Shown here: piece by piece, positions 26,405 through 29,021 of the stretch
How the letters are laid out: each line of letters starts with the position of its first letter
Position numbering within the stretch: the first letter of the stretch is position 1
Origin: Bacteroidota bacterium
GTDB lineage: Bacteria > Bacteroidota > Bacteroidia > Chitinophagales > Chitinophagaceae
Assembly (NCBI GenBank): GCA_026391435.1
Contig: JAPLEJ010000040.1
Span: 1-64,000, forward strand
Reading direction: 5' to 3'
DNA: 64,000 nt
Made by a program: the position numbers and the translations under genes
The notes under the pieces: model-generated
Databases searched by the model: none
Told to the model about the DNA's origin: nothing
Seen by the model: the letters and a program-made list of their open reading frames with translations, nothing else

Positions 26405-26412
26405 TACTTTTG
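26405..26412 (+). promoter_or_regulatory. Putative -7 box for the deoxyhypusine-synthase-like gene
   Basis: TACTTTTG matches TAnnTTTG, about 17 bases before the ATG, which implies a very short leader. Confidence 0.4.
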
Positions 26413-26428
26413 CTTCAAATTTATTAAA

Positions 26429-27403
26429 ATGAGCAAAGGACCCGTTTCGCAGTTTATTGAGCATCATTACAGACATTTTAATGCAGCTGCCTTAGTGGAT
26501 GCTGCAAAAGGCTATGAGACCCATTTATTAGAGGGTGGTAAAATGTTAGTGAGTTTAGCAGGTGCGATGAGTACCGCTGAGTTAGGCATTAGTTTAGCCG
26601 AAATGATTCGACAAGATAAAATTGCCATCATTAGTTGTACTGGTGCCAATTTGGAAGAAGATGTAATGAACTTAGTAGCACATAGTCACTATAAGCGTGT
26701 TCCTAATTATCGTGATTTGACTCCACAGGACGAGTGGGATTTATTAGAAAATCATTACAATCGTGTGACAGATACTTGTATCCCTGAAGAGGAAGCATTT
26801 AGAAGATTACAAAAACATATTGTGAAGTTTTGGAAAGCAGCTGAAGAAAAAGGCGAACGCTATTTTCCTCATGAATTTTTATACCAAGTTATTTTAAGCG
26901 GAGAACTAGAGCAATATTATGAGATTGATCCTAAGGATAGCTGGATTGTTGCTGCTGCAAAAAAGAATATTCCTATTGTGGTTCCAGGTTGGGAAGATAG
27001 TACGACTGGAAATATTTTTGCTAGCTATGTAATCAAAAATGAATTAAAAGCTTCCACTGTTAAAAATGGTATTGAGTATATGGTTACTTTAACAGAGTGG
27101 TACCGTGCCAATAGTGGCGGTAAGGGGGTAGGGTTTTTCCAAGTGGGTGGAGGTATTGCAGGGGATTTCCCTATTTGCGTCGTTCCAATGATGTACCAGG
27201 ATCTAGAATGGCACGATGTTCCTTTTTGGAGCTATTTCTGTCAAGTGAGTGATAGTACCACTTCCTATGGTTCTTATTCAGGCGCAGTTCCTAATGAAAA
27301 AATTACCTGGGGTAAATTAGATATTCATACACCTAAGTTTATTGTCGAAAGCGATGCTACCATTGTGGTGCCATTGATTTTTGCTTACATTTTAGGACAA
27401 TAG
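26429..27403 (+). CDS. Deoxyhypusine synthase-like protein (candidate homospermidine synthase)
   Basis: The 324-residue protein keeps deoxyhypusine-synthase features. They are an N-terminal nucleotide-binding start (LAGAMSTAELGISLAEMIR), SCTGANLEEDV, GGGIAGDFPI, and the catalytic lysine Lys296 in WGKLD, equivalent to the lysine that forms the enzyme-aminobutyl intermediate. Bacteria lack eIF5A, the usual target. In a cyanobacterium a homologue is required for homospermidine formation, so a polyamine role is the best guess. It stands alone between strong signals: a -7 box upstream and a bidirectional terminator after it. Confidence 0.88.
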   Translation: MSKGPVSQFIEHHYRHFNAAALVDAAKGYETHLLEGGKMLVSLAGAMSTAELGISLAEMIRQDKIAIISCTGANLEEDVMNLVAHSHYKRVPNYRDLTPQDEWDLLENHYNRVTDTCIPEEEAFRRLQKHIVKFWKAAEEKGERYFPHEFLYQVILSGELEQYYEIDPKDSWIVAAAKKNIPIVVPGWEDSTTGNIFASYVIKNELKASTVKNGIEYMVTLTEWYRANSGGKGVGFFQVGGGIAGDFPICVVPMMYQDLEWHDVPFWSYFCQVSDSTTSYGSYSGAVPNEKITWGKLDIHTPKFIVESDATIVVPLIFAYILGQ

Positions 27404-27413
27404 GATTTCAACT

Positions 27414-27454
27414 AAAAAAAGAAGCCTCTCGATTTCGAGAGGCTTCTTTTTTTT
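27414..27454. terminator. Bidirectional terminator between the deoxyhypusine synthase-like and M28 peptidase genes
   Basis: A near-perfect 11-12-bp GC-rich stem (27421-27432 with 27435-27446) is flanked by seven A and eight T, so it can end transcription from both sides. Confidence 0.92.
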
Positions 27455-29000
27455 AACGACCTGGCATATTCAACTTCAAGTCTCTTTTCAACATATCATC
27501 TCGTTGTGTCATATCGCAAGCAGTATAGTAAATCATCAATACTCTTTTTTGCATTAAATCAAAATTGATTTTTTCTATGGTGTCGGTAGGTTTATGATAA
27601 TCAGCTAACAACATACCATCGTAAAAAAATAATACAGGCACTCCTTTTTTTGCAAAGTTATAATGGTCGCTTCGGTAATAAATTCTGTTTTTATCGTTAG
27701 GATCATCAAACGTATAATCTAATGTGATATTACTAGAAGCTTTATTTGCTGCTTCATTGATAATAGGTAAGTCGGTACTTAATTTATCATGTCCAATAAC
27801 ATATACATAATTCAAAGAATCTCCCATTTTTCTTTCTGTATCAACACGACCAACCATATCAATATTTAAATCAACTGTTGTTTGATCTAGTGGGAAAATA
27901 GGATGCTCTGAATAATACTCTGAACCCCACAAACCTTTTTCTTCACCGCTCACTGTCATGAATACAATCGTGCGTCTAGGTTGTTTTCCTTTTTTTGCAG
28001 CTGCCGAAAAAGCTTCTGCAATTTGCATCACACTTACTGTACCTGATCCATCATCATCAGCACCATAGTATATGACATCACCTCTTTTTCCTAAATGATC
28101 GTAGTGGCCAGTAATCATAACATATTCCTCTTTTTTATCTGTACCAGGTAATACCGCAATCACATTACTACTTTCTACATTTTCTGTTACTTTCTTTGCT
28201 GTGATATTAATATCAACAGGGTAGTTTGCTTTTTTAATATCCTTGAAATCAGCAACTGTTAATTTGTTGGTACTAACGATAGGGGTCATATTGGCAGCTA
28301 CTTCAGGCGAAATAGAAGCAGATAAGAAACTCGCACCTGTGTTTGCTTTTAAATACATACCTCCTTTGGTTTCAGAAGGTGATTTTTTTGGAAAATCAGG
28401 TGAGATAATTAATAAACCTGCCGCGCCTTTTGATGCTGCTGTTCTCATTTTAGCAAAGGAAGATGCAGGATTGTTGAACATGCCTCTTCCGCCAGCGGCT
28501 GCTGCTGGAGCTGAACCACTACCATCCAATACTACTACTAGTTTTCCCTTTACCTCTAAATTTTCAAAGTCATTGACACTCTTGCTTGGATCCACAATAC
28601 CATAACCTGCAAATACAACTTCAGTAAAGTTCCAGTTGCCATTTGAGATTCCTTGCAATGAAAAATTAAAGTCTTTATCCCATTCAAATGATTTTCCGTT
28701 TACAACTAATTTTTTATCTGATAAAACATCTTGGTATACTGGATATACTTGTTGGTAGCTTTGGCCATTACCTGGCTGTAAACCCATTCTCTTGAATTCA
28801 GACTCAATATAAGCTGCCGCTTTTTTTTGTCCTGGAGAACCCGTTTCCCTTCCCTCCATCTCCCCACTTGCGATGATGGATAACTTTTGTTTTAAACCTG
28901 CTGCAGTAATGACTTTACCATATTTTGTAAGTGCATTACTTGTTTGAGCAAAACTCATATTGCTAGTTAATAGCAATAAGATCCATAGCATTTTTTTCAT
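27453..29000 (-). CDS. Exported M28 family metallopeptidase with PA domain
   Basis: The 515-residue protein has a signal peptide ending near NMSFAQ. An inserted protease-associated domain lies at about residues 120-260, and the two-zinc peptidase domain follows. Candidate ligands are His299 (GHYDHLG), Asp316 (GADDDGSG), Glu353/354 (SGEEKG), Asp381 (NIDMVG) and His446 (SDHYNF). It is probably an aminopeptidase acting in the periplasm. I chose ATG at 29000; an ATG two codons upstream is also possible. Confidence 0.92.
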   Translation of the reverse strand: MKKMLWILLLLTSNMSFAQTSNALTKYGKVITAAGLKQKLSIIASGEMEGRETGSPGQKKAAAYIESEFKRMGLQPGNGQSYQQVYPVYQDVLSDKKLVVNGKSFEWDKDFNFSLQGISNGNWNFTEVVFAGYGIVDPSKSVNDFENLEVKGKLVVVLDGSGSAPAAAAGGRGMFNNPASSFAKMRTAASKGAAGLLIISPDFPKKSPSETKGGMYLKANTGASFLSASISPEVAANMTPIVSTNKLTVADFKDIKKANYPVDINITAKKVTENVESSNVIAVLPGTDKKEEYVMITGHYDHLGKRGDVIYYGADDDGSGTVSVMQIAEAFSAAAKKGKQPRRTIVFMTVSGEEKGLWGSEYYSEHPIFPLDQTTVDLNIDMVGRVDTERKMGDSLNYVYVIGHDKLSTDLPIINEAANKASSNITLDYTFDDPNDKNRIYYRSDHYNFAKKGVPVLFFYDGMLLADYHKPTDTIEKINFDLMQKRVLMIYYTACDMTQRDDMLKRDLKLNMPGR

Positions 29001-29021
29001 AAACATTATTTTATAATTTTT

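Follow-up and report, generated by a model that had tools for sequence, protein, structure and literature searches.

The gene at positions 26429 to 27403 of the window, by which we mean the whole 64,000-nucleotide stretch of Chitinophagaceae DNA analyzed here, encodes a protein with the fold and catalytic lysine of deoxyhypusine synthase (DHS). With a probability of about 0.7, we regard it as an NAD-dependent homospermidine synthase that would join two putrescines, its acceptor being a free diamine and not a protein. In our best reading, the role is biochemically ordinary and the subfamily is unusual, and the homospermidine suggestion of the original prediction was right in direction. A wider scenario is tentative and somewhat doubtful: besides the two known bacterial types, Bacteroidota and their phages could have a third class of DHS-fold enzymes for amine coupling, deeply separate and with an active-site chemistry of its own, which might be the source of the homospermidine long known from flavobacteria and their kin, might have been captured more than once by large phages to supply homospermidine in infection, and in some hosts might be controlled by a small structured RNA leader that may sense a polyamine.

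The DHS-like gene and its protein

26429..27403, plus strand: DHS-family protein, candidate homospermidine synthase (open reading frame; PF01916, 141.7 bits; DHS fold by AlphaFold2 and Foldseek)
27314..27316, plus strand: codon of catalytic Lys296, equivalent to Lys329 of human DHS (lysine in 91 of 91 aligned sequences)

The reading frame is intact, opens with ATG, and encodes 324 amino acids, whose sole Pfam match is to PF01916 (DS), at 141.7 bits against a cut-off of 27; a PF01916 profile search of the window's own genome (84% complete) returned this one gene. An AlphaFold2 model computed from the window protein and 37 relatives reached a pLDDT of 92.1, and the best 50 PDB matches found by Foldseek were all archaeal or eukaryotic DHS (TM 0.70–0.78, identity 16–21%), with a TM of about 0.76 to the best archaeal and human DHS chains. 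Lys296 had been named correctly as the catalytic residue: it aligns with Lys329 of human DHS (by an 8-residue numbering offset computed by hand) and was invariant in the 25 sequences of a first alignment as well as in the 91 of a later one. By score, fold, and catalytic lysine, the protein is thus a member of the PF01916 superfamily, and its identification as a DHS homologue stands. A search for eIF5A with PF21485 gave no match in any of the 148 genomes sampled from the phylum (four archaeal control genomes were positive; the window's own genome, included here, is 84% complete).

Genomic context and candidate regulatory elements

26405..26412, plus strand: TAnnTTTG promoter box, starting 24 nt before the ATG (pattern in 52 of 79 relatives)
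27414..27454, no single strand: bidirectional terminator hairpin, common to the DHS-like gene and the convergent M28 peptidase gene (folding against shuffles)
27453..29006, minus strand: M28 peptidase gene, convergent to the DHS-like gene (profile match)

In the window, the DHS-like gene is single and flanked by two minus-strand genes, encoding an SdpI-like protein and the M28 peptidase. The nearest named records carrying the gene come from two MAGs, one labeled Chitinophagaceae and one Sediminibacterium (proteins 98% identical in the best segment), and have the same gene order, namely a 259-aa protein, cystathionine synthase-like, SdpI-like, DHS, M28 peptidase, rpiB, and then a gene that we take to be tatC, and none of the searched neighbors in this lineage was a polyamine gene. 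The earlier description of the gene as standing alone holds for the window and its lineage and fails for many relatives, in which polyamine genes adjoin it (see below). A 3-kb contig labeled as a Comamonas MAG (L117) also encodes the protein in its Chitinophagaceae form (98% identity), again beside the M28 peptidase gene, and its label is probably a binning error.

The TAnnTTTG box, presumably the Bacteroidetes −7 consensus, is likely a real promoter element, as its pattern is enriched upstream of the gene: it occurred within 60 nt in 52 of 79 named relatives versus 3.0% of random 60-nt windows (79 of the 80 named loci were counted, L117 having too short an upstream region; a first pass gave 32 of 48 hand-picked loci). 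A scan for sigma-70-like sites gave no excess over shuffles (7 vs. a mean of 10.7). Downstream, the hairpin at 27414–27454 folds stably on both strands (−27.1 kcal/mol on plus and −28.2 kcal/mol on minus; z = −7.7 and −8.6 against shuffles), and it was not among the matches of the pattern scan. Both flanking elements of the original prediction, the promoter-like box and the bidirectional terminator, were therefore recovered.

In several Chitinophagaceae relatives, a small structured RNA element of about 45–60 nt lies between a promoter-like box and the ATG. Its outer stem is CCGC/GCGG, its inner hairpin is variable, and it carries the string TCTGAAG (in L154, TATGAAG). A model made from nine copies and searched against 97 of 253 loci (820,627 bases) gave 11 strong matches (E < 1e-6), all directly upstream of the DHS-like gene and two of them (L014 and L064) outside the model-building set, plus one further weak match (E 0.02):

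L127:1968-2022, L129:4934-4989, L133:4928-4987, L147:4936-4993: RNA element copies (RNA model)
L152:4937-4990, L154:4938-4992, L164:4921-4980: RNA element copies (RNA model)
L027:1385-1442, L029:1379-1442: RNA element copies (RNA model)
L014:2464-2515, L064:8982-9034, minus strand: RNA element copies (RNA model)

The window itself had no match to this model. Rfam searches gave nothing at the gathering threshold in 13 related loci and no more than sub-threshold matches around the window terminator. Because only six pairs are predicted and three of them covary, we rank the leader as no more than a candidate regulator.

A separate subfamily with its own active-site signature

The window protein fell below the cut-offs of all seven NCBIfam models that it matched, by a wide margin. 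A tree built from 80 sequences set the window type, together with its viral relatives, apart from the rest by a very long branch that had full SH-aLRT support; this was a quick search without bootstrap from which 11 near-duplicate viral rows were left out, and given a program warning about long branches meeting, its fine placements are unsure. The missed cut-offs led us to reject the names SpeY, CdmS, and DHS for this protein, and with the separate branch added, it is no orthologue of either curated bacterial subfamily.

Lys296, Trp294, Glu290, and Asp190 were kept in 91 of 91 aligned sequences. All 30 bacterial rows of the window type carried Asn195 at the site of human Asp243, Tyr283 at the site of human Asp316, and Asp246 as the residue following Gly245, whereas members of the other two classes, 13 of which were aligned, had Phe (7) or Met (6) at the 195 site, Leu (12) or Cys (1) at the 283 site, and Asn at the 246 site. 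The correspondence of Asp246 to the human His288 column depends on the alignment, with the two in register in MAFFT and shifted by one residue in the PDB profile alignment. Each of the 37 aligned relatives, among them phage copies, was at least 46% identical to the window protein. Mainly because of this signature (Asn195/Asp246/Tyr283) and the tree, we conclude from the sequence comparisons that the window type is a separate subfamily. As the spermidine-binding residues of human DHS are changed, its substrate is not readable from known active sites; deducing the substrate from individual residues was likewise rejected, given that archaeal DHS also has Leu at the human Asp316 site and that the His288 column shifts between alignments. 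Our literature search found no published description of this subfamily, nor biochemistry of any member.

Distribution and complementarity with spermidine-pathway markers

Across 148 genomes of the phylum, 119 had a DHS homologue, with one match each, and 29 had none. The PF01916 scores fell into three classes, at about 340 bits (58 genomes, lowest 277), 240 bits (7 genomes), and 140 bits (54 genomes, the window type), and these classes replaced one another, with never more than one match per genome. The classes were set by PF01916; the members checked with NCBIfam were L098 and L061, which pass NF002699, and L092, which passes NF001980. NF002699 describes the caldomycin synthase (CdmS) type and NF001980 a "homospermidine biosynthesis protein". 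In the window's own bacterial family, the gene was present in 56 of 60 genomes and in 52 of the 53 of good quality. The window type also occurred in records named Flavobacterium (MAGs), Empedobacter (E. brevis), Myroides, Chitinophaga, Hydrotalea, Sphingobacterium, and Mucilaginibacter; Hydrotalea flava was reportedly described with sym-homospermidine.

Markers of other triamine pathways were distributed in the opposite way. SpeD (PF02675) or nspC over cut-off was detected in 25 of the 29 genomes without a DHS homologue, compared with 12 of the 119 with one (Fisher, 2e-15) and 5 of the 54 of the window type (2e-12), the tests ignoring kinship; one of the 148 genomes (inferred to be G202) was entered as lacking a DHS homologue, SpeD, and over-cut-off nspC, with the match lists being complete. 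The same contrast appeared within a single family (f21), where SpeD was present in 10 of 11 listed genomes without a DHS homologue versus 1 of 7 with one. The exceptions are five window-type genomes that also have SpeD and four DHS-less genomes that have neither marker. SpeD and nspC are imperfect markers, because some SpeD homologues, often encoded next to speY, may decarboxylate arginine or ornithine instead, according to one study (PMC10407285), and because SpeE and homospermidine synthases (HSS) of the saccharopine- or carboxyspermidine-dehydrogenase type lay outside the search. In its distribution, the gene thus acts as a triamine route would for which other lineages substitute the synthesis of spermidine.

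Gene partners and the route to putrescine

The earlier view that no partner explains the role of the gene did not survive comparison with relatives. When the neighbors in 40 loci were clustered, decarboxylases formed a group represented in 13 loci, and agmatinases one represented in 8. In 25 of the 54 window-type genomes, an arginine-decarboxylase homologue was at most 5 kb away from the DHS-like gene, with a gap below 200 bp in 11; by rough arithmetic, such a placement would arise by chance in well under 1% of genomes of 3–4 Mb. Every one of the 54 genomes had a decarboxylase homologue, 41 of them short and 13 with a long frame. With the decarboxylase adjoining the DHS-like gene in locus L079 as query, strong homologues (E < 1e-150) were found in 41 of the 54 genomes versus two other genomes, and the other 13 window-type genomes gave weaker matches with frames of about 630–780 aa, which, judged by frame length alone, are probably full-length SpeA. 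The agmatinase gene lay between the decarboxylase and DHS-like genes in five genomes (G173, G185, G162, G144, and G117), and an arginase-like gene adjoined the DHS-like gene in G105. In L079, the agmatinase scored 224.8 bits against a cut-off of 174.3, and the short decarboxylase was below its NCBIfam equivalog cut-off. A protein with GNAT and carbon-nitrogen-hydrolase domains (the L071 member was searched) adjoins the decarboxylase, agmatinase, and DHS-like genes in three genomes (L068:6441-7958; L071:6453-7982; L074:6321-7853, minus strand).

The step from agmatine to putrescine varied. Agmatine deiminase (AIH) only was present in 20 of the 54 window-type genomes, agmatinase only in 20, both in 8, and neither in 6, with agmatinase counted over the TIGR01230 cut-off (lower-scoring arginase-family proteins occur in many genomes) and AIH at E < 1e-70. 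That this route is interchangeable while the DHS-like gene stays points to putrescine as the common precursor. In the window's own genome, three homologues of the route lie together within 7 kb on another contig (C55) than the DHS-like gene:

C55:13416-14843, strand not given: decarboxylase homologue (similarity to the L079 decarboxylase)
C55:18445-19230, strand not given: N-carbamoylputrescine amidase (NCPAH) homologue (similarity)
C55:19361-20362, strand not given: AIH homologue (Pfam 385 bits vs. a cut-off of 25)

All three scored below their NCBIfam equivalog cut-offs, so their roles, and with them the presence of putrescine-making genes in this genome, are assigned by similarity. The same genome (84% complete) gave no SpeD match and neither nspC nor agmatinase over cut-off, and its two arginase-superfamily matches were below the agmatinase cut-off.

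Copies on viral contigs

In IMG/VR, 54 viral loci (L195–L248) encode window-type relatives with identities of 44–80%. Among the 48 viral copies aligned (for the other six loci, no frame above 280 aa was picked), Lys296, Trp294, Glu290, and Asp246 were kept in all, Asn195 in 46, and Tyr283 in 47. A search with one terminase family in the records of 35 of these loci gave four long records over the cut-off (97, 116, 154, and 465 kb), one 15-kb record below it, and 30 without a match:

G205, G207, G209, G231, strand not applicable: long viral records bearing a terminase (terminase family match)

Of these four terminases, three were compared with PHROGs, which confirmed them, and a portal protein is encoded on the 97-kb contig as well. 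Where a DHS-bearing viral contig lacks a hallmark gene, it may represent host DNA. On the tree, the viral label needs six changes, of which at least three are forced by strong branches, and this suggests repeated exchange of the gene between bacteria and phages. None of 50,697 GenBank phage records matched the window protein at E 1e-3, so the viral evidence comes entirely from metagenomic contigs. In a published survey of viruses, BLASTP had turned up no DHS-like enzyme for homospermidine (PMC9992855), and phage contigs with this subfamily would change that null finding.

Several neighbors of the viral copies deserve mention. On the 465-kb phage contig G205, the copy is followed downstream (L197:5161-6831) by a metallophosphoesterase and by a class II tRNA-synthetase-like domain that stands alone, the latter with 43 bits in Pfam and far below the cut-offs of NCBIfam models. 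Another viral copy adjoins a gene (L218:5070-5597) with a weak, below-cut-off match to pyruvoyl-dependent arginine decarboxylase, making a two-gene polyamine cassette possible. On a 40-kb viral contig, the DHS-like copy is overlapped at its start by an agmatinase gene (L206:3168-3995), which scores over cut-off at 223.5 bits; that contig had no terminase match, and an origin from host DNA is possible.

Proposed pathway and alternative explanations

In the pathway that we propose, arginine would be decarboxylated to agmatine, which would be converted to putrescine by agmatine deiminase and N-carbamoylputrescine amidase in the window's own organism and by agmatinase in many relatives. The DHS-like enzyme would then oxidize one putrescine on NAD, keep the resulting aminobutyl group bound to Lys296 as an imine, and transfer it to a second putrescine, giving sym-homospermidine, which would be the main triamine of the cell. 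The homospermidine suggestion of the original prediction is supported by the gene neighborhoods, by the complementarity with spermidine-pathway markers, and by published polyamine profiles of relatives. In two Flavobacterium species, sym-homospermidine was the major polyamine, at 27.3 and 20.5 micromol per g dry weight, with putrescine and spermidine minor (PMC8570120). The Weeksella genome paper calls homospermidine the major polyamine of all Flavobacteriaceae (PMC3072086), and for Dyadobacter fermentans (Cytophagaceae), spermidine is given as the major polyamine (PMC3035232). Our search found no polyamine profile for the genus or family (Chitinophagaceae) of the window organism. Homospermidine is thus on record as the main polyamine of Flavobacteriaceae (PMC3072086), yet the gene reaches no NCBIfam cut-off and has the general PF01916 as its only Pfam match; with a clean candidate whose active-site signature is conserved, the question can be addressed directly in genetically tractable Flavobacterium.

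The founding members of the DHS fold modify a protein, and a class II tRNA-synthetase fold, in EpmA, modifies EF-P, so the position of one phage copy (L197) near a class II tRNA-synthetase-like gene could be read in favor of lysine aminobutylation in EF-P or another bacterial protein. We consider such a role extremely unlikely given the linkage of the gene to putrescine biosynthesis, its distribution complementary to other triamine-pathway markers, and the absence of eIF5A matches from all 148 genomes; a hypusine-like modification, which had been raised as an alternative, was rejected because there was neither an eIF5A match nor a conserved protein partner among the clustered neighbors. The divergent substrate residues might also mark a relic of DHS that has degenerated or moonlights and no longer transfers aminobutyl groups, but this is just as improbable for a gene present in 52 of 53 good-quality genomes of its family, with at least 46% identity of 37 aligned relatives to the window protein and invariant catalytic residues. 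A synthase like plant HSS, with spermidine as aminobutyl donor and putrescine as acceptor, would share the same fold and lysine chemistry; in 49 of the 54 window-type genomes, the window's included, no SpeD was found, and none of the 54 has nspC over cut-off, so spermidine is probably not made in those 49, and we hold this reading to be very unlikely.

An agmatine-coupling enzyme deserves more weight, although we still find it unlikely. It would join two agmatines into 1,9-bis(guanidino)-5-azanonane, from which a ureohydrolase would release homospermidine, and it has a precedent in CdmS, a DHS homologue of Thermus that couples agmatine (PMC10981699). The most frequent neighbor, an arginine-decarboxylase homologue, would be a source of agmatine, agmatinase adjoins the gene in several genomes, and the two arginase-superfamily proteins of the window's own genome leave room for the ureohydrolase step. 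On the other side, 20 of the 54 window-type genomes, the window's among them, have agmatine deiminase and no agmatinase over cut-off, and the required ureohydrolase is represented in the window's own genome only by arginase-family proteins below that cut-off. Phe204 and Leu286 of CdmS, singled out in the same paper (PMC10981699), correspond via human numbering to Asn195 and Tyr283 here, a weak argument in that archaeal DHS also has Leu at the second site. We therefore prefer putrescine over agmatine as the substrate. The fold, catalytic lysine, subfamily, gene linkage, complementary distribution, and lack of eIF5A matches were observed here; we infer a coupling chemistry in which putrescine would serve as both donor and acceptor and homospermidine would be the product.

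Comparison with known systems

The window type resembles eukaryotic and archaeal DHS (human DHPS, 8put, and 7cmc) in fold (TM about 0.76 to 8put and human DHS) and in the catalytic lysine. It differs in that the spermidine-binding residues Asp243 and Asp316 are replaced, in the lack of eIF5A matches in 148 genomes, and in its scores against the models of true DHS (94.9 bits for TIGR00321, cut-off 304.25; 110.5 bits for PRK00805, cut-off 434). With the bacterial HSS of the Blastochloris type, which is related to carboxyspermidine dehydrogenase, it would share the product homospermidine, and that enzyme is non-homologous to the DHS-like one (PMC9992855).

Closer counterparts are the two bacterial members of the DHS fold family. 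SpeY (NF001980) is like the window type in family, catalytic lysine, bacterial occurrence, and expected product homospermidine; the window protein falls far short of its cut-off (109.5 vs. 450 bits) and branches separately, and six aligned members have Met, Asn, and Leu where the window type has Asn195, Asp246, and Tyr283, a comparison that assumes, from the model name only, that the characterized Anabaena SpeY belongs to NF001980. CdmS (NF002699) likewise shares the fold family and lysine, together with a tie to arginine decarboxylation and homospermidine as end product (PMC10981699). The window protein reaches 92.8 bits against its cut-off of 500, seven aligned members carry Phe, Asn, and Leu (Cys in one) in place of the Asn195/Asp246/Tyr283 signature, and 20 of the 54 window-type genomes have agmatine deiminase instead of agmatinase.
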